From NCBI GenBank assembly GCA_903848905.1, contig CAINHP010000124.1:1-34032 (forward strand): a DNA stretch of 34,032 nt. Reading direction: 5' to 3'. Each line of letters starts with the position of its first letter. Position 1 is the stretch's first letter. Position numbers and translations under genes: made by a program. Positions 13,123 to 33,881 of the stretch are shown here, one piece after another. This stretch comes from an uncultured Pseudomonadota bacterium. Its GTDB lineage: Bacteria; Pseudomonadota; Gammaproteobacteria; Methylococcales; Methylomonadaceae. Under the pieces are notes generated by a model. That model saw only the letters and a program-made list of their open reading frames with translations, ran no database searches and was not told the DNA's origin.

Positions 13123-14769
13123 TTATCTCAACAAGGTCATGACGGTTTGGCCAGATTGATTAGCTTGCGCTAACATCGCTGTTCCTGCTTGTTGTAATAT
13201 TTGAGCACGGCTCATGTTTGCAGTTTCTACTGCGAAATCGGCATCCATAATACGTGATTTAGCTGCAGTTTGATTTTCAATGCCGTTTTGCAAGTTAGCA
13301 ATCGTTGTTGTGAAACGATTTTGGGTTGAACCTAAGTTTGAGCGTTCTGTATCAATAGCAGCAATAGCAGCATCGATGTAATTAATTGCTGATAATGCAT
13401 AATCCGCTGCTACGCCGTCAGCGGCAGTCGAAATATCTAAAATTAATTTATTGTTACTGATTGAAGAAGCTTTATCGGTTTCATTTGCTGACGCAGTTTT
13501 CAATGGATCTTCAACATAAGATGCGCCAGCAATCGCCTTCGCTACAGCTAATCCAGCTAAGGTTTTTTGAGCCTCTCTATCGGCACCAAATGCATTACCT
13601 ACTTTAAATGACCGGTTCACCGACTGGTTTAAAACGGTATCTTGACCAGCAACAGCTAAATCTACTTGGCCTGACACATCTCTGACTGAAGCGGGTTTAT
13701 CAATTTTGTCCCCAGTTAAACTGTACATGATGTTGGTGTAAACGTTTTGGCTAATGGCTGTAATAGTGATTTTTGCCGCGTCAGCCAATGATGCTGCTGT
13801 AATTGATAGTGAAGCTGCTTGAGCCGCATCGGTTACACTTTTCGCTTGAATAACAGTATCTGTTGCGATAACAGATGTATTGGTTGCCTGGATAGCGAAG
13901 TCAGATGCATTGACTTTATCAGTAAATTCTTGTGATACTAATTCGGTAGATAAACTTGTTGTTGTAGTTGTTTTAGTTGCTGCAGATGAAGCTGCTAATG
14001 CTGCCGCTGCTTTCGCGTTTGCTGTTGATGCGGCTTTTGCAAGTGCTACATCAGTAGGTGATTCCATTGCTTTTTTTGCGGCAACAACCGCTGCATTGGC
14101 TAATTTAGCTGCTGAGTTAGCGGGTGTTAACAATTGATAATAAGCAGAAGTAGAATCATTGACAGCGTCATTACTGGCTTTAGTGATTGCAGCAGACATG
14201 GAAGAATCAATTTTTTGACTGGCTGGACTGAGTGTTGTTTTAGTCACGGGGGCCAATAATTGACTCATATTGGATACTGCTACGCCAATACGACTGTTGG
14301 TGTCTGAAGTGGCACCTACTTGAATATTTAAGCCAGTAGTGAGGTCACCGTTTAGAATTTTTTTACCATTGAATTCACTATTTTGGACAACACGCATTAA
14401 TTCATCGTTTAATGCTTTGAACTCAGTGTCGATTTTAGCGCGATCCGAAGCTGAAACAGCTGCGTTACTTGATGATTGCACGGCTAAATCTCGCATACGT
14501 TGCAAGGTATCAGTTAATGAACCTAACGCGCCTTCAGCAGTTTGTGTAAGTGAGATGCCGTCGTTTGCATTTCTAACAGCAACGGTCATACCACGAATTT
14601 GAGAGTTCATTCTGTCAGCAATAGCAAGACCAGCTGCATCATCTTTTGCACTATTAACTCTTACGCCAGATGATAAGCGTGTCATTGATGTCGAAAGTGA
14701 TGTTGCCGAAGAAGTTAAATTACGTTGCCCGTTAATTGAGCTTAAATTGGTGTTGATTATAAGTGCCAT
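13123..14769 (-). CDS. fliC: Flagellin
   Basis: Structural subunit of the flagellar filament, exported through the flagellar type III system. The 548 residues have the conserved D0/D1 ends: an N terminus of MALIINTNLSSINGQRNL with LSSGVRVNSAKDDAAGLAIADRM, and a C terminus with IDAAIAAIDTERSNLGSTQNRF and ending QANQSGQTVMTLLR. The middle (about 175-400) is variable and rich in Ala, Ser and Thr. GGAG lies upstream of the ATG at 14769. A sigma-54-type promoter lies about 110 bases upstream. flaG is nearby on the same strand, but fliD and fliS are not in the window. A second, broken flagellin at 16046-16715 matches residues 327-548. Confidence 0.96.
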   Translation of the reverse strand: MALIINTNLSSINGQRNLTSSATSLSTSMTRLSSGVRVNSAKDDAAGLAIADRMNSQIRGMTVAVRNANDGISLTQTAEGALGSLTDTLQRMRDLAVQSSSNAAVSASDRAKIDTEFKALNDELMRVVQNSEFNGKKILNGDLTTGLNIQVGATSDTNSRIGVAVSNMSQLLAPVTKTTLSPASQKIDSSMSAAITKASNDAVNDSTSAYYQLLTPANSAAKLANAAVVAAKKAMESPTDVALAKAASTANAKAAAALAASSAATKTTTTTSLSTELVSQEFTDKVNASDFAIQATNTSVIATDTVIQAKSVTDAAQAASLSITAASLADAAKITITAISQNVYTNIMYSLTGDKIDKPASVRDVSGQVDLAVAGQDTVLNQSVNRSFKVGNAFGADREAQKTLAGLAVAKAIAGASYVEDPLKTASANETDKASSISNNKLILDISTAADGVAADYALSAINYIDAAIAAIDTERSNLGSTQNRFTTTIANLQNGIENQTAAKSRIMDADFAVETANMSRAQILQQAGTAMLAQANQSGQTVMTLLR

Positions 14770-16045: not shown

Positions 16046-16715
16046 TTATCTCAATAAAGCCATTACAGTTTGACCAGATTGGTTAGCTCGCGCTATCATC
16101 GCTGTAACTGCTTGTTGCAAAATTTGAGCGCGGATCAAGTTTGCCGTTTCTACTGCGAAATCTGGATCCAGAATGCGTGACTTAGCATCAGTTTGGTTTT
16201 CAATGCCGTTTTGCAAGTTAGCAATCGTTGTTGTGAAACGGTTTTGAGTTGAACCCAAGTTTGAGCGTTCTGTATCAAGCGCCGCAATTGCCGCATCGAT
16301 ATAGTTAATTGACGCTAACGCGAAAATCAGCCGCAACACTTTCAGCTACAGTTGAAGCTGAAAGCACTAAAGCGTTATTACCAATAAAAGACGCTTTGTC
16401 TGTTTCGTTAGCTGAAGCTGTTTTCAAAGGATCTTCAACATAAGACGCACCAGCAACCGCTTTAGCTAATGCTAAACCAGCCAATGTTTTTTGTACTTCT
16501 CTGTCCGCACCAGATGCATTGCCTACTTTGATCGATCTATTAACGGCTTGGTTTAATACGTTATATTGACCGGCAACCGTCATATCAACTTCACCTGATA
16601 CGTTTCTAACTGATGCAGGAAGATCAATTTTGTCACCAGTTAATGCGTTCATTACCGTTACGTAAATATGTTGACCTGCTGCAGCAACGTTAGCTTTTGC
16701 TGCTTCAGCTAATGA
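16046..16715 (-). pseudogene. Second flagellin, 5'-truncated and frameshifted
   Basis: The minus strand encodes a protein collinear with fliC residues 327-548, from SLAEAAKANV to the end SGQTVMALLR. The matching part of fliC (13123-13791) is 669 bases and this copy is 670. The difference is one extra base near 16322-16325, in the GAAAATC run, which shifts the frame. Upstream, homology stops abruptly at 16715, where a TAG codon precedes the first matching serine, so the N-terminal D0/D1 half is absent. Several conserved C-terminal positions have changed (DPDFA for DADFA, NLIRAQ for NMSRAQ, AVTAMIARAN for AGTAMLAQAN). It cannot make a filament subunit. It could act as a donor for gene conversion with fliC. 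Confidence 0.9.
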
Positions 16716-18018: not shown

Positions 18019-19101
18019 TTAATTAGGCAACCCAAAGCGAATAATTTTCGAAAAATCGCTCGCATTCAGACTCGCGCCACCCACTAACGCGCCATCCACC
18101 CCAGCAAGCTGCATAATTTCACAAATATTATCTGGTTTGACATTGCCGCCATAGAGAATACGCACGCGTGCGGCGACTTGTTCGCCATATAAATCCATCA
18201 GTAAATTACGAATAAAATCGTGCACTTCTGCAATTTGCTCTGGTGGCGCGGGTTTTGCGCCTTCGCCAATAGCCCAAATAGGTTCGTATGCAATGATGAT
18301 CTCATGCATAGTTGGACGTGCAACGCCGTCAAGGCCAATGCGTATTTGACGCTCAAGTAACTCAAAGGTCTCATGTGCGCGACGTGCTTCACGGTTTTCG
18401 CCGCAACAGAAAATGACTTGCAGACCATTTGCCAGTGCTGCATGAACTTTGCGTTGAATCGCTTCGTCACTTTCGCCCGCGCGTTCGTTTAATTCATGTT
18501 CTAAAAACTTTTCTAAACCCTCAAGTACGTCGTTATTACTTTCTTCAAGTAAATGCGCGATGGCTGATAAAATTTTAATGTCTGGGTTTTCGCGTTGACT
18601 TAAACGCAGATGCGATTGCGTGAGAAAGCTTTTAGATAAACGCCGCGCCACACTGGAGCTAAAACCAAAATATTTCCCTAAATTAGCGCGACGGTCTGAA
18701 TGCCCAATAATGACGCGATCAACACCAATCGCCGCAAGCATATCGGCAGAGATTTCCCCTGTAAACGCGCCTTTGGATTCGAAAAACGTATCTTGCGCAA
18801 GTAAAAATACATTACGTCCAATGCCATACTCACGTTGCAAAAAATCGGGTTCGATATAATCGGCAAGTGTGGATAAGCCAGTGAAAGGCGGGGCAAATCC
18901 CATGTCTACATCACGAATGTTGTGGCACAAATCAAAAATTCTCGCTGCGAGTGCAACACCAGCGCGAGGAATTAGATTCATTTTCCAGTTTCCCGCCAAA
19001 AAAGGTCGAATAGCACTCGGGTCACCCTGTTCGGCTGGAATTTTTCGCCATTGATTGGCGGTGCGCTGACGGTAATAATTACGATATATTGGGGTAGTCA
19101 T
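18019..19101 (-). CDS. tpiA: Triosephosphate isomerase, divergent, with a ~65-residue insertion
   Basis: Interconverts dihydroxyacetone phosphate and glyceraldehyde 3-phosphate. Catalytic residues are present: Lys40 in AGNWKMN, His134 in IIGHSDRR and Glu273 in AYEPIWAIG. GALVGGASL forms the phosphate-binding end. The protein is 360 residues, against about 250 normally. An N-terminal extension adds about 30 residues, and about 65 extra residues lie between HSDRR and the AALANGLQVIFCCGE strand (about 141-215, charged and helical). The near-invariant glutamate of GHSERR is Asp136, loop 6 reads WAIGEGAKPA in place of WAIGTGK, and the YGGS serine is Asn320. No in-frame ATG between 19101 and the NWK motif offers a shorter start. 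It may be a working divergent TIM or a paralogue with altered activity. Confidence 0.88.
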   Translation of the reverse strand: MTTPIYRNYYRQRTANQWRKIPAEQGDPSAIRPFLAGNWKMNLIPRAGVALAARIFDLCHNIRDVDMGFAPPFTGLSTLADYIEPDFLQREYGIGRNVFLLAQDTFFESKGAFTGEISADMLAAIGVDRVIIGHSDRRANLGKYFGFSSSVARRLSKSFLTQSHLRLSQRENPDIKILSAIAHLLEESNNDVLEGLEKFLEHELNERAGESDEAIQRKVHAALANGLQVIFCCGENREARRAHETFELLERQIRIGLDGVARPTMHEIIIAYEPIWAIGEGAKPAPPEQIAEVHDFIRNLLMDLYGEQVAARVRILYGGNVKPDNICEIMQLAGVDGALVGGASLNASDFSKIIRFGLPN

Positions 19102-21272: not shown

Positions 21273-21773
21273 ATGTCGCACCTTATCGAATTTAATACCA
21301 CACACAATCACGACGCCTGCATACACGACGCGCTTGAAAATGCGCAGCAAATTTGCCAAGAAAAAGGTGGCGTTCTCACTGATATTCGTCGACAAGTGCT
21401 TGAGCTGATTTGGCGAAATCATCACCCTGTTAAAGCCTACGATATCATTGAAAAATTCAAACCTAGCGAGCGCACACAAGGCGCAGCAAAACCGACGACG
21501 ATTTATCGGGCATTGGAGTTTTTGCTTGAAAAAGGGTTAATTCATCGCGTCGAAAGTTTGAATGCATTTATTGGCTGTAATAATCCGCTTCATGTTCATG
21601 AGTTACTATTACTGATTTGCAAAAAATGTGAAAACGTTCAAGAACGTAGCGCGGAGATTGTGATGGACAGTGTGAAAACAGAATTGATAAATGCCCACTT
21701 TATCGCGCATAGCAAAACCATAGAAATTCACGGATTGTGTGAAAACTGCATACAAGATAATCAGGTTGAATAA
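21273..21773 (+). CDS. zur: Zur, zinc uptake regulator (Fur family)
   Basis: Zinc-sensing repressor of zinc-uptake genes. The 166 residues have a winged-helix DNA-binding half (LTDIRRQVLELIWRNHHPVKAYDIIEKF, then KPTTIYRALEFLLEKGLIHRVE) and a metal half. The latter has CNNPLHVHELLLLICKKCENV and the C-terminal GLCENC, giving the two CxxC pairs of the structural zinc site, plus histidines for the regulatory site. The N-terminal HNHDACIHDAL and the GCNNPLHVH pattern favour Zur over Fur. The next gene is a ZnuD-type receptor and both have Zur-box-like palindromes, which supports the assignment. Confidence 0.9.
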   Translation: MSHLIEFNTTHNHDACIHDALENAQQICQEKGGVLTDIRRQVLELIWRNHHPVKAYDIIEKFKPSERTQGAAKPTTIYRALEFLLEKGLIHRVESLNAFIGCNNPLHVHELLLLICKKCENVQERSAEIVMDSVKTELINAHFIAHSKTIEIHGLCENCIQDNQVE

Positions 21774-21895: not shown

Positions 21896-23968
21896 ATGTT
21901 AATTACAAAACGTGCTATGTCTTTTTGTCTGCTGGTTTTGAGTCCGTCACTTTATGCTCAGGAAGAAACAATTCAAAAACTTGATGATATGGTCGTCAGT
22001 GCACCTTTTATTGAGTCGGTGGAAGATTCGTCACATCCTATTACCTTATTAAAAGGGGATGAGTTACGTAATAAAGTGGGTTCAACATTGGGCGAAACAC
22101 TGCAAAATGAACTGGGCGTGACCAATCAATCCTTTGGTTCTGGCGTTGGTATTCCAGTTATTCGTGGGCAATCGGGATCGCGGGTGAAAGTACTTCAAAA
22201 CAGTTTAGGTAATAATGACGCGTCATCGTTGAGTGCTGATCACGCAACGGGTGTTGACCCGATTATTGCCGAGCGAATTGAAGTGCTAAGAGGTCCTTCA
22301 ACACTTTTATATGGAAGTGGCGCGATGGGAGGGATTGTGAATGTGATTGATAATCGTATTCCTGAAACTCTATTCGACAAAGTTATCGGTGGTGCAGGTG
22401 AGCAACGTTATGATTCAGCTACCGATGAAACCTCCAGTGCGCTCAAACTCGAAGGCGGCAAAGATCATTTTGCGTATCATGTTGATGGTTTTTATCGTGA
22501 TGCAGGCAATACAAGTATTGGAGGTATGGCGATTGATGAAGCGCGGGCGCGTCAACATGATCCGAGTTTTCATGCAGTACCAGCAGGTGAATTGCAAAAC
22601 ACGGATGGCTTTATAGATAATACGCAAACGCGAACACGAGGCGGTAGTGCGGGTTTTTCGATGATTGGCGATAGTGGTTTAGCAGGCGCGGCGATTAATC
22701 AGTTAGAAAAAAATTACGGTATTCCGCCCGATGGACATGGCGAAACACCGGTTCATGTTGAAATGAAGCAAACCAAATACGATTTTAAAAGTCAATTGAA
22801 TAATCCGTTTGCGTTCGTTGAAAAAGCCAAACTGAAATTTGGTTATACTGATTATGCACATACTGAATTTGATGGAAATATTGCCGGTACTACTTTTTTA
22901 AATCAAACCTATGAAAGCCGTTTTGAGCTGGCGCATACGCCGCTAATCAAAAATAACAAAGGTATTTTGGGTTTTCAATCGAGCAATGGCGAATTTGTCG
23001 GACTTGGCGAAGAAGGCAAAATTGTGCCGAAATCCAATATTGATACATACGGTCTATTTAATGTTGAATCGCTCAAAGCGGGCGCGATGACTTATGAAAT
23101 GGGTGGGCGCATTGAATCCACGCAAATTACGCCTGATGGTCGCGCTGATGTGTCCTATATTCCGCTGAGTGGTTCGCTTTCTGCGTCATGGGATGTGAAT
23201 TCACAGAATAAACTCGGTTTAGCCTTTACCCATTCGCAACGTGCGCCACAAATTCAAGAATTATTTTCAGACGGTTTTCATCATGCCACGCGCAGTTATG
23301 AAATTGGCAATGCCAATTTGAAAAAAGAATTATCCAATAATTTGGATTTAAGCTATCAATTTGATGCGTCGTGGGTGAAGGCAGATCTGAGTTTATTTCA
23401 TAATTGGGTGAGTGATTACATTTATCAGCAGCGTGATGCGGCGCAACTTTTTAATGCGGAAGACGGTGAATTTATTGCCAATGACAGCGATTGCGCGGAA
23501 TGTTTCCCACTTTTGCATAGTCAGCAGAAGGCGGCTATTTTTAAAGGCTTTGAAGCGAAAACCGTGTTTCCGTTGATGGATAATAAATTCGGTTTAGTGG
23601 ATTTGACCTTATTTGGCGATTACACGCGCGGCACATTTGATAATGGTGGTGATGTACCTAGAATGCCTCCACTACGTTATGGGGTGCAAGTGAGCTATGA
23701 TAAAAATGAATGGTCAAGTAACGTGCGTTTAACGCGCGGTGAGGCGCAAACGAATGCAGGTGAAAATGAAACCACGACGCCTGCCTATTTATTGTTGAAT
23801 TTAGGCACACAATACAAAATCGCGCATTTTGCACAATCGGATATTTTACTTTTCGCTAAAGGGAAGAATTTGCTCGATGAAAATATTCGCAGCTCGGTGT
23901 CTTATTTACGCAATTTTGCGCCCGATGCGGGGCGAAGTGCGGAAGTGGGAATTCGGGTGAGTTATTAA
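21896..23968 (+). CDS. znuD: ZnuD-type TonB-dependent zinc receptor
   Basis: Outer-membrane gated transporter for zinc, energised by TonB. The 690 residues start with a signal peptide (about 1-21, ending SLYA) and a TonB box (DDMVVSA, about 29-35). The plug domain follows with GIPVIRGQSGSRVKVLQNS, SADHATGVDPIIAERIEVLRG and GAMGGIVNVIDNRIP, wording characteristic of ZnuD. The 22-strand barrel ends in a terminal aromatic (VGIRVSY). A cysteine pair (DCAEC, about 531) lies in an extracellular loop region, as in Neisseria ZnuD. AAAGGA sits 5 bases before the ATG. It follows zur by 122 bases and a Zur box lies between them, so repression in zinc-replete cells is expected. Confidence 0.88.
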   Translation: MLITKRAMSFCLLVLSPSLYAQEETIQKLDDMVVSAPFIESVEDSSHPITLLKGDELRNKVGSTLGETLQNELGVTNQSFGSGVGIPVIRGQSGSRVKVLQNSLGNNDASSLSADHATGVDPIIAERIEVLRGPSTLLYGSGAMGGIVNVIDNRIPETLFDKVIGGAGEQRYDSATDETSSALKLEGGKDHFAYHVDGFYRDAGNTSIGGMAIDEARARQHDPSFHAVPAGELQNTDGFIDNTQTRTRGGSAGFSMIGDSGLAGAAINQLEKNYGIPPDGHGETPVHVEMKQTKYDFKSQLNNPFAFVEKAKLKFGYTDYAHTEFDGNIAGTTFLNQTYESRFELAHTPLIKNNKGILGFQSSNGEFVGLGEEGKIVPKSNIDTYGLFNVESLKAGAMTYEMGGRIESTQITPDGRADVSYIPLSGSLSASWDVNSQNKLGLAFTHSQRAPQIQELFSDGFHHATRSYEIGNANLKKELSNNLDLSYQFDASWVKADLSLFHNWVSDYIYQQRDAAQLFNAEDGEFIANDSDCAECFPLLHSQQKAAIFKGFEAKTVFPLMDNKFGLVDLTLFGDYTRGTFDNGGDVPRMPPLRYGVQVSYDKNEWSSNVRLTRGEAQTNAGENETTTPAYLLLNLGTQYKIAHFAQSDILLFAKGKNLLDENIRSSVSYLRNFAPDAGRSAEVGIRVSY

Positions 23969-30645: not shown

Positions 30646-30690
30646 TGGGCATGTAATCGTAATAGGTAGCGGGATTATGCTCAAAATAAT

Positions 30691-30734
30691 ACGCCCACAA
30701 GGACAATAAATACAGTGTTCTTGTGGGCGTTTTT
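30691..30734. terminator. Terminator shared by convergent pyrB and a small gene
   Basis: ACGCCCACAAG (30691-30701) and CTTGTGGGCGT (30720-30730) form an 11-bp perfect stem followed by TTTT on the plus strand. On the minus strand the exit tract is ATTATTTTG, so it can serve both pyrB and the convergent 51-residue gene. Confidence 0.9.
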
Positions 30735-30736
30735 AG

Positions 30737-30892
30737 TTACTCAATATCTTTTTTCCACTGCGCACGAAACCACAAATACGCTCCAATTCCCACAGTAGCT
30801 AAGACAAAAAGTCCTATCAGTATAGGATGTTCATAAAATGTTTCAAAAAATGCACCTGTTCCGTGTGACGTCCCACGATAATACGGCCCCAT
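30737..30892 (-). CDS. Small single-helix membrane protein (51 residues)
   Basis: A short gene: MGPYYRGTSHGTGAFFETFY, then the hydrophobic helix HPILIGLFVLATVGIGAYLW (about 22-41), then a basic tail RAQWKKDIE. The Shine-Dalgarno AGGGG lies 6 bases before the ATG at 30892; an ATG one codon earlier (30895) is also possible. Its stop is immediately followed by the terminator shared with pyrB. The clear start site, membrane helix with a positively charged C-terminal tail, and correctly placed terminator make it a likely real gene. The family is not recognised. Confidence 0.7.
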   Translation of the reverse strand: MGPYYRGTSHGTGAFFETFYEHPILIGLFVLATVGIGAYLWFRAQWKKDIE

Positions 30893-31020
30893 CATTCACC
30901 CCTTATGATTTTTGTTATTGTTGTAAAAGTTAAGTGGATCTATTTCTGACTCTTTACAGGGGTATTTTACCACGATAAACGATTCATACAAACGTTGTCA
31001 CGGTACATTTTTAGCGGGCA

Positions 31021-31191
31021 ATAAAAAGCCCGCATAAAGCGGGCTACCTGAGTAATTATTTTTATTATTATCCTGTCGTTCTAGGCAATTTCCCAGCGAC
31101 GTCGACTCAAGTTGAAAATTTCTACTATTTATTATTATTGTTATGTTAGCTTCTAACAAAGCTACCTACCTAATCGCTTTCTCTCGAAAGC
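31021..31191 (-). ncRNA. Candidate structured small RNA of about 170 nt
   Basis: A 300-base gap on the minus strand after nnrS looks like an independent RNA. It opens with a stem-loop GCTTTC-GAGA-GAAAGC (31176-31191) at the predicted transcript start. A second stem follows, TAGCTT/AAGCTA (31147-31164), then a third, GTCG-CUGGG with CCUAG-CGAC (31075-31100). It ends in a terminator, AGCCCGC-TTTAT-GCGGGCT (31045-31027), with a T run (31026-31021). Single-stranded stretches rich in AAYAAYAA motifs lie between (AACAATAATAATAA; ATAATAATAAAAATAA), the kind of site Hfq binds, as in CrcZ-like RNAs. A sigma-70 promoter lies just upstream. No coding frame fits. I cannot name a known family. Confidence 0.6.
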
Positions 31192-31197
31192 AGGTAC

Positions 31198-31225
31198 ATT
31201 TTAACGGAAATTATGATTATGTCTA
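31198..31225 (-). promoter_or_regulatory. Sigma-70-type promoter of the candidate small RNA
   Basis: On the minus strand -35 TAGACA (31220-31225; 5 of 6 to consensus) and -10 TAAAAT (31198-31203; 5 of 6) are 16 bases apart. The predicted start is about 31191-31192, the first base of the first hairpin. Confidence 0.55.
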
Positions 31226-31348
31226 TTTAAAAAATAGATTGTTTCCAAAAAAAACATAAATTTATTTTCGAATATCAATGAATACAATGAGTTGTGAAAT
31301 AGGTGTTATTTTAAAAACAGGCAATTAGTGCTTTTTATTGTGGAAAAC

Positions 31349-32527
31349 TTATAAATCATCTACGCGTTTCTTCATTAAAACGGGTGAGTAAATCACCACG
31401 AATAAGGCAAATGCACCCAGCCAAGCCAGTGTGGCTAAATAAAACAGTACCTGTTGTTGAGCGCTAAAGGTTAGCGGCATCACAACGCGAAAGAGCGCCG
31501 CGAGATTGATAAGCACAAATGCGATTACAATGGGTTGAGAGGCTTTAAGGGCCTGGCCAGTGTGACCAAGTGCCACGCGTGCCATCATGCCGAGAGTGAG
31601 TGTGCCAATACCACCTAGTGTGAAGGCATGCAGGGCCAGTGATGGGGGAATCCAATCCCATGCAGCAAAAGCCGTTAAGACAAAGCCTAAAATCAACCAG
31701 CCATACCCTAGATGTAAAATCCAAAGGAGGGGAACAAAGGTAATTCTATAGATACTCCATCGAGCTAATCGCCAAGCGTTTAATCCCGCTGTTATTAAGG
31801 CGACAAGTCCTAAAAATACACCTGATTCAACTGCGCATTGCAGACTAAAGAACACAATCGTGCTTCCTATCGCTAAATTATCAAGCATGGGACTGCGAGG
31901 GATAATCACGCCTTTTAAGCCACGTTCAATAAAAAAGGGGAAGAGGCGGCCTGCGATAAATACGATCATTAAGACAATGGTTGCAAGGGCGATATTTATG
32001 CCCATTGTGGCGCTCGTACTTGAAAAACCAAGCATTTGGGCATGAATACACGCATTGGCAAGCATTAACCATCCCAGTAACCCGACAAATGCTAAATTTC
32101 GGTAATTCTTTGCTTGAATTAACGCTTTGCCCACCACGAAAGTGAGCGTCGGCAAAAAGGCAAAATCCACGAGCGCGATGAGCTCATTGGGGAGTAAGCC
32201 GGCATAAAATGGCAAAATTCGCCCATATAGCCAAAGTAAACTCAAGCCGACTAGGCCTTCTCCTTGCAGGGTAATTTTGCCTGTCCAATTACTGGCCGCT
32301 GTTAGCAAAAAACCGGCAATGACGGCTACACTGTAGCCGAGGAGCATTTCATGTGCGTGCCAGTAAGTATTGGCAAAATAGGTCGTGTTAGTTAACGAGC
32401 CTTGCGTAAATTGTTGCCAAACAATCAGTAGCACCAAGGCAGATAGACTGGCAAGTAAGAAAAAAATGCGAAAACCTAAAGTGAAAAGGGGGGCGTTAAG
32501 ATAGTTGGAAAACGAGTGTGGTGTCAT
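31349..32527 (-). CDS. nnrS: NnrS family membrane protein
   Basis: 392-residue polytopic membrane protein of the NnrS family, associated with nitric-oxide stress and denitrification; known members are haem- and copper-containing. About 12 hydrophobic helices are visible. The family signatures are NTYWHAHEMLLGYSVAVIAGFLLTAASNWTGK (in part, about 54-85), RLFPFFIERGLKG, and LHAFTLGGIGTLTLGMMARVALGHTGQ (in part) near the C terminus. Conserved histidines in WHAHE, LHAF and LGHTG are likely metal ligands. No nitric-oxide reductase or regulator is in the window. The short palindrome at 32553-32564 is a possible operator for an NO-responsive regulator. Confidence 0.93.
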   Translation of the reverse strand: MTPHSFSNYLNAPLFTLGFRIFFLLASLSALVLLIVWQQFTQGSLTNTTYFANTYWHAHEMLLGYSVAVIAGFLLTAASNWTGKITLQGEGLVGLSLLWLYGRILPFYAGLLPNELIALVDFAFLPTLTFVVGKALIQAKNYRNLAFVGLLGWLMLANACIHAQMLGFSSTSATMGINIALATIVLMIVFIAGRLFPFFIERGLKGVIIPRSPMLDNLAIGSTIVFFSLQCAVESGVFLGLVALITAGLNAWRLARWSIYRITFVPLLWILHLGYGWLILGFVLTAFAAWDWIPPSLALHAFTLGGIGTLTLGMMARVALGHTGQALKASQPIVIAFVLINLAALFRVVMPLTFSAQQQVLFYLATLAWLGAFALFVVIYSPVLMKKRVDDL

Positions 32528-32778: not shown

Positions 32779-33114
32779 TTAAACTGAAAAATCCATGTAA
32801 TAGTTTTCGTCGTCGATTTTATAAAAATCTATATCGGTTCTTCCATATTTTAACAAATGCTCCATTATTACAGGTTCGCCAAGTGGAACACCTAACCTTT
32901 TTCTAAAGTATTCGCCAATTAAACTTTTGTTATACGGAGTTTGAATTGCTTTGCCATTTGCTTGTGTCCTTGTGAAAAAAATAATTTCATTGTCATCCGT
33001 TAGAACAGCAAAATGCCAATCGTAATCACGAAAAAAATCAGTTTTCCAAAGTTTCGATGGAAGTGAAATTAAATTTTTGTTGAGATAATCAGCGTTTAGC
33101 TCAAATTTTTCCAT
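32779..33114 (-). CDS. Putative DNA-recognition domain protein of restriction-enzyme type
   Basis: 111 residues. From memory the sequence resembles the C-terminal B3-like DNA-recognition domain of NgoFVII/BfiI-type restriction enzymes. It contains LPSKLWKTDFFRDYDWHFAV, FFTRTQANGKAIQTPYNKS, GEYFRKRLGVPLGEPV and YGRTDIDFYKIDDENYY near the end. No catalytic domain is present, so if real it would act as a specificity subunit. It overlaps the end of the upstream DUF3883 gene by 19 bases, and no strong Shine-Dalgarno is visible, which suggests translational coupling. Base composition is more A+T-rich than in the housekeeping genes. It could be a stand-alone fragment of a larger enzyme. The family call is moderate. 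Confidence 0.6.
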   Translation of the reverse strand: MEKFELNADYLNKNLISLPSKLWKTDFFRDYDWHFAVLTDDNEIIFFTRTQANGKAIQTPYNKSLIGEYFRKRLGVPLGEPVIMEHLLKYGRTDIDFYKIDDENYYMDFSV

Positions 33115-33881
33115 GAAATTGAATCGCTATGATAATTTAGTTGCGTCGATGTAATTGTTTTGGGCGTTAGGTTAATGTGTGTAACTGGATTAAAAATAAC
33201 ATTCATATTAGGATGTTCATCTAAATTGCTGATGACGATTAAAGCGTAATCGTCATTGTATTCTTGTGCTTTATTAAATTCATTTTTTGTCATTCTAATA
33301 CTTCCGTAGTTTGTTCTTAGTCCTTTTACTTCAGTTAAAAAGAAGTGATTTTTAACTTCAATTTGAAAATCATAACCATCACCAAACATTCGTGCATCTT
33401 CAAGTACGCCACTTGCAAATGAATCAATTTTTTCATAATTTGAAATGAAAAAAGTCTCTGCTTCCTGTCCGGTTAATTGCAATTGTTTGAATTTACTTTT
33501 TATAATCGGACTTATTGATAATTCTTCACTGACTAATTTATCAGAAATGGAGTTATTTTTGATATAGAGTTTTACAATATCTGCGTAAGCATTCGCATCA
33601 AGTGAACCAAAAAGTGAATCGATTAAAATTTTACGATGGATGTAAGAATCAGCTTTTTGCCACCAACCTCTTCGATTATTTTCAAAGAACGGGTCAAATA
33701 AATCTTGCCGGTTTTTAACTGTTCCAACGGTTTCTGCTATGTCAATTTGAACAATATATTGATAGAAATCTGTTTTTGTTTTAAATCCAAAAAATTCAAT
33801 AAATCGATTATCAAATTTAGCGAGTCCATAGCCAATTAGATTCAAAACTTCATAATTTTCGTGTTTTCCTTTTGTATCCAT
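33096..33881 (-). CDS. DUF3883 (NO VEIN-type) nuclease-like protein
   Basis: 261 residues. The C-terminal half (about 138-222) is a DUF3883 domain. It begins LTGQEAETFFISNYEKI, then EDARMFGDGYDFQIEV, then FFLTEVKGLRT and SIRMTKNEFNKAQEYNDDYALIVISNL. GYD (D171) and E184-V-K186 resemble a PD-(D/E)XK nuclease core. The N-terminal half has FIEFFGFKTKTDFYQYIV and VGTVKNRQDLFDPFFENNRRGWWQ. DUF3883 genes are frequent in restriction and defence loci. The partner downstream has a DNA-recognition-type domain, so the pair may be a restriction-like module. No methyltransferase is in the window, but upstream DNA is cut off at 34032. Confidence 0.75.
   Translation of the reverse strand: MDTKGKHENYEVLNLIGYGLAKFDNRFIEFFGFKTKTDFYQYIVQIDIAETVGTVKNRQDLFDPFFENNRRGWWQKADSYIHRKILIDSLFGSLDANAYADIVKLYIKNNSISDKLVSEELSISPIIKSKFKQLQLTGQEAETFFISNYEKIDSFASGVLEDARMFGDGYDFQIEVKNHFFLTEVKGLRTNYGSIRMTKNEFNKAQEYNDDYALIVISNLDEHPNMNVIFNPVTHINLTPKTITSTQLNYHSDSISWKNLS

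Follow-up and report, generated by a model that had tools for sequence, protein, structure and literature searches.

A conserved, very probable small RNA gene of Methylococcales with two A-rich runs that putatively bind Hfq

Introduction

Gammaproteobacterial methanotrophs are a major methane sink as well as an industrial platform. A regulatory small RNA (sRNA) of Methylococcales was not found in the literature on methanotroph RNAs, among the matches listed, whose coverage leaves subscription papers mostly outside. The available part of a Methylomonas DH-1 transcriptome names just rnpB, ssrS, ffs and ssrA (PMC6373157), and that of another candidate source names Methylobacterium alone (PMC2864571).

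Here we ask whether the stretch that follows nnrS on the minus strand of a contig from an uncultured member of the Methylomonadaceae (CAINHP010000124.1) is the gene for such an RNA or merely the tail of the nnrS transcript. The window, i.e. the whole stretch of DNA that was analysed, comprises 34,032 nt. An earlier note, made from these letters without database searches, had proposed an independent trans-acting RNA with three stem-loops, A-rich stretches, its own promoter and its own terminator. By comparing the locus with its counterparts in related genomes we find that it is very probably the gene for an sRNA of ~171 nt, which is common to many related methanotrophs and absent from the Rfam listing.

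Results

Layout of the locus

The elements of the locus are collected in Table 1. The sigma-70-like promoter is present as the earlier note had described it, with TAGACA and TAAAAT separated by a spacer of 16 bp (minus strand, 31225-31198), and so are the GCTTTC-GAGA-GAAAGC hairpin at 31191-31176, two further stems and a canonical terminator made up of a stem (31045-31027) and a T-rich tail. The A-rich runs exist as well, but they do not follow the stems as had been stated: run 1 lies between the second and the third stem and run 2 inside the third stem-loop.

Table 1. Elements of the sRNA locus (coordinates of the window)
Feature	Position	Strand	Basis or remark
Small RNA, ~171 nt	31021..31191	-	conserved block with sharp 3' edge, covariance-model match, fold z-score
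-35 hexamer TAGACA	31220..31225	-	conserved in relatives
-10 hexamer TAAAAT	31198..31203	-	conserved in relatives
Discriminator GTACCT between -10 and +1	31192..31197	-	GC-rich in most relatives
Conserved upstream box TTGTATTCATTGA, consensus TGTATTTATTA	31275..31287	-	~60 bp upstream of -35
5' hairpin P1a, GCTTTC-GAGA-GAAAGC	31176..31191	-	fold; one compensatory G-C to A-U change within the genus
G-rich stretch ATTAGGTAGGTAG preceding P2	31162..31174	-	comparison of loci
Hairpin P2	31147..31164	-	fold; compensatory changes between genera, zero inside own genus
A-rich run 1, AAN triplets, putative Hfq distal-face site	31125..31144	-	two AANx4 runs in 12/12 own-genus RNAs
Stem P3 enclosing P3a and A-rich run 2	31046..31112	-	two P3 pairs changed on both sides within the genus
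P3 strands, ACTTGAGT paired with ACTCAGGT	31112-31105 with 31053-31046	-	
Hairpin P3a inside P3	31100-31075	-	
A-rich run 2, AAN triplets, putative Hfq distal-face site	31055..31072	-	inside the P3 stem-loop
Intrinsic terminator P4 with TTTTTATT tail	31020..31045	-	stem 31045-31027, T-rich tail

The 174-nt strand has a predicted folding energy of -45.8 kcal/mol, compared with a mean of -33.4 kcal/mol for shuffles (z = -3.1), and beats all 200 dinucleotide shuffles. Promoter-like matches, on the other hand, are common: the region contains 10 of them with 6.1 expected (sd 2.6), making a promoter match alone unremarkable, and it is because of the comparison with relatives that the locus stands out from chance.

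Distribution of the RNA

Within the own genus a DNA match was obtained in 13 of 18 genomes. The other five (G001, G002, G013, G015 and G017), three of which are at least 90% complete, gave neither a DNA nor a model match. In a conservation profile of 11 sequences (locus L007 omitted; 25-bp steps) the mean pairwise identity amounts to 0.60-0.92 between a point 100 bp before the predicted start and position +174 and to 0.31-0.52 outside this block, falling from 0.92 to 0.49 just past the terminator.

At the family level the DNA search yielded matches in 112 of 201 genomes, mostly covering only the last 52 nt, so that the search alone could have caught just generic terminators. This explanation was ruled out by reading the loci, which revealed full-length counterparts sharing promoter type and order of elements, and by a full-length covariance model, R1. 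R1 was built from 25 training sequences, all of them from outside the own genus, and recovers the locus in the window at 31198-31020 with 77.2 bits (E = 6e-12). It also recovers 41 of 41 loci, none of them a training row, that were already known to carry the RNA and include some near-duplicates. Matches to R1 were found in 176 of 237 genomes of the family, representing 27 of the 29 sampled genera, and in 98 of 151 genomes of the order. Among the latter, 34 matches lie outside the own family, in f2, f4, f5 and f6, with E values of 1e-10 to 9e-4, many of them weak, and genomes of f3, f7 and f8 figure among the listed ones without a match. In a sample of the class 3 of 369 genomes match: besides the own genome and a second member of its family there is only G653, whose match (E = 4e-4; 25% GC, promoter not recognised) is probably due to chance. 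From these counts we conclude that the RNA is specific to the order, as far as sampled, and patchy within it.

For the comparisons described below, 94 places were reduced to 71 that are distinct in their last 150 nt; four were cut by contig ends and dropped, leaving 67 loci, 12 from the own genus and 55 others. Scanning named genomes for a pattern yielded 63 stretches, of which 59 are titled with the names Methylobacter, Methylovulum, Methyloglobulus, Crenothrix, Methylococcaceae or Methylococcales. Methylobacter belongs to the Methylococcales (Gammaproteobacteria), and we take Methylovulum, Methyloglobulus and Crenothrix to be placed there, too. The remaining four (L038, L076, L087 and L092) are labelled 'uncultured proteobacterium' and, like L068 ('Methylococcaceae bacterium'), contain the same RNA as the own-genus loci.

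Conservation of the promoter

To describe the promoter we used 109 upstream regions, a set in which the window locus is counted two times, once under L001 and once under its own name. The -35 hexamer is exactly TAGACA or TGGACA in 88 and of this kind in 100 of the 109 regions. A -10 hexamer could be assigned in 99 regions and reads TAGAAT, TAAAAT or TACAAT in 77 of these; the spacing count of 98/99 is biased, the -10 having been chosen as the top-scoring site under a scheme that favours spacings of 16-18. The predicted start, 31191, coincides with the first base of the 5' hairpin, as had been noticed earlier, and this position agrees with the relatives. The regular expression that placed starts itself required a purine, and the purine count was therefore taken from alignment A2 (25/25 rows) and the own-genus list (12/12) instead; two other rows, L049 and L059, have a T. 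The stretch between -10 and start is GC-rich, with a mean of 0.74 over the 49 of 55 family sequences that could be placed by script, and GC-rich discriminators are associated with growth-rate control. The promoter and the intrinsic terminator are conserved together with the RNA, as is typical for an independent sRNA gene.

The conserved box further upstream probably constitutes an activator or UP-type site. Of the own-genus sequences 11 of 12, and of the other-family sequences 38 of 55, match its consensus at 9 or more of 11 positions, 59-61 bp from the -35 hexamer, the consensus having been derived from the same sequences that were later scored with it. Among shuffled segments, 462 of 3350 reach 9/11 at any position. 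Another element, the palindrome TTTCGnnnCGAWA ~43 bp upstream of -35, occurs in just 13 of the 109 regions. Eight genomes contain extra copies of the RNA (L141, L144, L146, L151, L152, L153, L154 and L148, the last with two copies) that carry the palindrome TGCGACAnnnTGTC(G/A)CA, the first base of which lies 23-25 bp ahead of that of the -35 hexamer. This palindrome is found at 9 places of the 109 upstream regions, is absent from all others and looks like the site of a distinct regulator.

Covariation in the stems

The earlier note had named covariation among relatives as a check on the proposed stems. Compensatory changes are indeed present, both between genera and within the own genus. In A2, which like A4 is a plain MAFFT alignment and whose structure was drawn from its own sequences, 87.6% of the cells pair, compared with 31-49% in slid controls. 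Fifteen of the 36 pairs have changed on both sides, a number not equalled by any of 500 shuffles (mean 9.0) and exceeding the slid controls (4-12). Further pair types are less telling, being equalled by 27 of 500 shuffles, and P3 shows zero double changes in this alignment. Within the own genus 97% of the cells pair and double changes affect 3 of 37 pairs, one in P1a and two in P3. The covariation score of this set was reached in 1 of 500 shuffles, the count of double-change pairs in 31 and that of further pair types in 445. Alignment A5 gives double changes at 23 of 36 pairs, a figure biased toward the structure as A5 was fitted to the model. The terminator stem is invariant in 12/12 own-genus and 25/25 model sequences and therefore contributes no covariation evidence.

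A closing stem P1, formed by a C-rich strand before the hairpin and the G-run, was kept in the model, but its apparent conservation may reflect a constraint on the promoter. As the start at alignment column 8 puts the 5' strand of this stem in the discriminator, no claim is built on it.

Reading frames and known RNA families

A mechanical 53-aa frame starting with TTG overlaps the RNA. Of the 12 own-genus sequences just two keep it open, namely the window and a relative that is 98% identical. No conserved coding frame was found: own-genus frames that end inside the RNA measure 6-31 aa, and those of the other 55 sequences 1-35 aa. In many other genera GAGGAGGA or GAGGGGGA replaces the G-rich stretch ATTAGGTAGGTAG. 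At many distant loci (L128-L139 and others) GAGGAGGA, which strongly resembles a Shine-Dalgarno sequence, lies unpaired before P2, with no start codon obviously kept after it.

The absence of a known family was borne out by an Rfam search, in which zero families reached the gathering score at the RNA, be it in the window or at 29 loci of relatives (13 family loci and 16 further ones). The scanned sequences contain nothing else at this score than a tRNA in L148 and the 5S rRNA at the start of the window, which begins inside a 5S rRNA gene (1-85). A permissive scan of 30650-31360 returned 15 matches up to an E value of 10, all below the gathering score and the CrcZ model not among them. One of them is RF00513 (Trp_leader; 26 bits, E = 0.006, gathering score 41), which recurs at all eight loci of relatives that were scanned permissively (23-29 bits); L016 shows additional sub-threshold matches, the best with E = 0.029. 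The likeness to RF00513 is weak and concerns the 3' part of the RNA including the terminator, whereas the score stays below the gathering score, a leader peptide is not kept and no trp gene was noticed among the neighbours read. The RNA represents a new family not in Rfam 15 and would be of an established kind, the Hfq-type sRNAs.

Genomic neighbourhood

An alternative is that the RNA is a 3' UTR or a processed tail of the nnrS mRNA. In the window this would be conceivable: nnrS, the product of which was confirmed as NnrS by Pfam, ends ~157 nt upstream of the RNA on the same strand, and a terminator-like site was not found in between. However, nnrS is the upstream gene at just 7 of the 12 own-genus loci, the others having nuclease-like genes (two), a galU-like gene or a recJ-like gene that points the opposite way (L014), with one more locus cut off at this side, and a BepA-like protease gene takes its place at 51 of 59 other loci (several of the remaining eight being cut by contig ends). 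Of 41 further places, 15 have a BepA-like gene upstream as well, and each of these belongs to the same family. The neighbours other than NnrS were named from their sequences and are presumably what these names say. The neighbours vary while the RNA persists, and the promoter is conserved alongside the RNA, which renders the tail of nnrS highly improbable and agrees with the independent RNA of the earlier note.

Even less probable is a leader or attenuator of a downstream gene, a role to which the recurring sub-threshold match to Trp_leader and a 52-aa ORF downstream on the same strand (30895-30737) might point. Every match to RF00513 remains below the gathering score, the RNA is devoid of a conserved reading frame, and the downstream gene varies between genomes and is convergent in many, a convergent TonB-receptor-like gene being found at 24 of 71 loci and at 8 of 41 further places, five of these outside the family.

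Several features of the surroundings are recorded here in their own right. The 52-aa ORF lies past the terminator of the RNA (30737-30895, minus strand) and encodes a hydrophobic segment. Beside nnrS lie two overlapping genes (32779-33881, minus strand) that may form a restriction system; the domains recognised in them are a DNA-binding one of the NgoFVII type and a C-terminal NO VEIN domain. At 16046-16652 (minus strand) there are apparent remains of a second flagellin gene, consisting of a 97-aa frame with a Flagellin_C domain and an overlapping 115-aa frame that resembles the middle of the intact flagellin at 13123-14769. The triosephosphate isomerase at 18019-19101 (minus strand) has 360 aa and is matched in two stretches, the family having 245 positions. 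In another family of the order (G277, contig C161) the RNA match (23388-23565, E = 2e-5) is located ~1.8 kb upstream of hfq (21429-21614) on the same strand.

A-rich runs and candidate pairing elements

Exactly two runs of at least four AAN triplets (AANx4) are present in all 12 own-genus sequences (mean 2.0 vs 0.08 in shuffles, 0/100 equal). Two runs are also found in 49 of the 55 other-family RNAs, with one in four and three in two of them. In a set of 40 distant RNAs, which excludes G653 and the window, 26 have two runs, 12 have one and two have none. Shuffled sequences average 0.04-0.08 runs across the sets. The distal face of Hfq binds repeated ARN motifs, and such a run is described for the class II sRNA MgrR in the available part of PMC6239178; the motif AAnAAnAA is given as the Hfq-bound CA motif of the CrcZ/CrcY system in that of PMC12533007. 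Two properties associated with class II Hfq sRNAs are found here, as an AAN run sits in an unpaired region and an hfq gene is present, both in the own genome and in 67 of 71 genomes of the order.

For a 10-nt element of the own-genus G-rich stretch regarded as a possible pairing region, GGTAGGTAGC, the own genome contains no perfect complement other than the RNA gene. Across the 18 genomes the complement occurs at 23 places (in 15 of the 18) and is thereby rarer than its reversed control (39); ten of the 23 places are the RNA gene, and the other 13, read by eye, did not reveal a recurring gene, so that no target emerged from this search.

Discussion

The best reading of these results is an Hfq-binding, class II-like sRNA that would act in trans. 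We assign a probability of about 0.72 to a stand-alone, trans-acting sRNA of ~171 nt that belongs to a Methylococcales-wide family and is putatively held by Hfq at its distal and proximal faces. Transcription, Hfq binding and action in trans are inferred here from sequence. The RNA would be transcribed from its own predicted sigma-70-type promoter and would end at its own terminator. The two AAN runs would be kept open between and inside the stems and, together with the U-rich 3' tail, would allow Hfq to hold the RNA by its distal and proximal faces, as in ChiX and MgrR. The RNA may then regulate mRNAs in trans, either by base pairing or by competing for Hfq.

The combination of an unpaired A-rich ARN/AAN run with the U-tail of a terminator is shared with the enterobacterial class II Hfq sRNAs ChiX, MgrR, CyaR and McaS, as presented in the available part of PMC6239178, which lists 98 nt for MgrR, whereas the RNA described here has ~171 nt and two AAN runs. 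A relation to the class II sRNAs was not found in Rfam, and the link to Hfq is predicted. With CrcZ and CrcY of Pseudomonas the RNA has in common several AAnAAnAA-like runs (counted here as AANx4) that are separated by stems. The crcZ gene is characterised by its neighbour cbrB, its promoter type and its length; the RNA analysed here, in contrast, is found beside nnrS, bepA or other genes, has a sigma-70-like promoter and is shorter.

This likeness to CrcZ/CrcY leads to the main rival, a decoy whose AAN runs would titrate Hfq, whether or not Crc takes part as a partner, and relieve Hfq-repressed mRNAs, pairing being of minor importance. Such a role appears possible, if rather doubtful. Stems, both AAN runs and terminator are retained between the own genus and other genera, whereas possible seed stretches differ, as judged by eye; exactly two runs in 12/12 own-genus and 49/55 other-family RNAs and a candidate seed whose complementary site was not seen to recur point in the same direction. 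Two sites are few for titration, however, 12 of the 40 distant RNAs have one run and two have none, and seeds and targets may have changed together. A more specific version, to which we give slightly less credence, is a decoy particular to the Methylococcales, i.e. an independent, convergent counterpart of CrcZ with a growth-regulated promoter, to which the GC-rich discriminator and the upstream box at its fixed distance would belong, and with extra copies that in some genomes would be under a second regulator (palindrome TGCGACAnnnTGTCGCA). If this were true, the RNA would be a central switch of carbon or nutrient use in methanotrophs. Titration of CsrA/RsmA in the manner of RsmY/RsmZ, in which GGA motifs of the 5' half (the ACGGA loop and AGAGGAGGA) would bind CsrA, is very unlikely. 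A GGA-containing 5' half is shared with these sponges in many other genera, where ACGGA in the first loop and GAGGAGGA are often seen; 172 of 201 genomes of the family have csrA, and the 40 distant RNAs contain 3.48 GGA compared with 2.74 in shuffles (0/100 equal). By contrast, GGA is scarce in the own-genus RNAs, which average 0.5 and are thus below their shuffles (1.6), it is not enriched in the 55 other-family RNAs (2.27 vs 2.70), and none of the three sets shows an enrichment of ANGGA. As the own genus lacks GGA motifs, yet has kept csrA in 17 of 18 genomes, the idea of CsrA titration was dropped for this locus.

The class II-like sRNA remains our preferred reading, and the interest of this RNA family rests on its breadth across methanotrophs. 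With matches in 27 of the 29 genera sampled from one family and in further families of the order, and deletable in cultivated methanotroph strains, the RNA offers an obvious starting point for the study of post-transcriptional control in methanotrophs.
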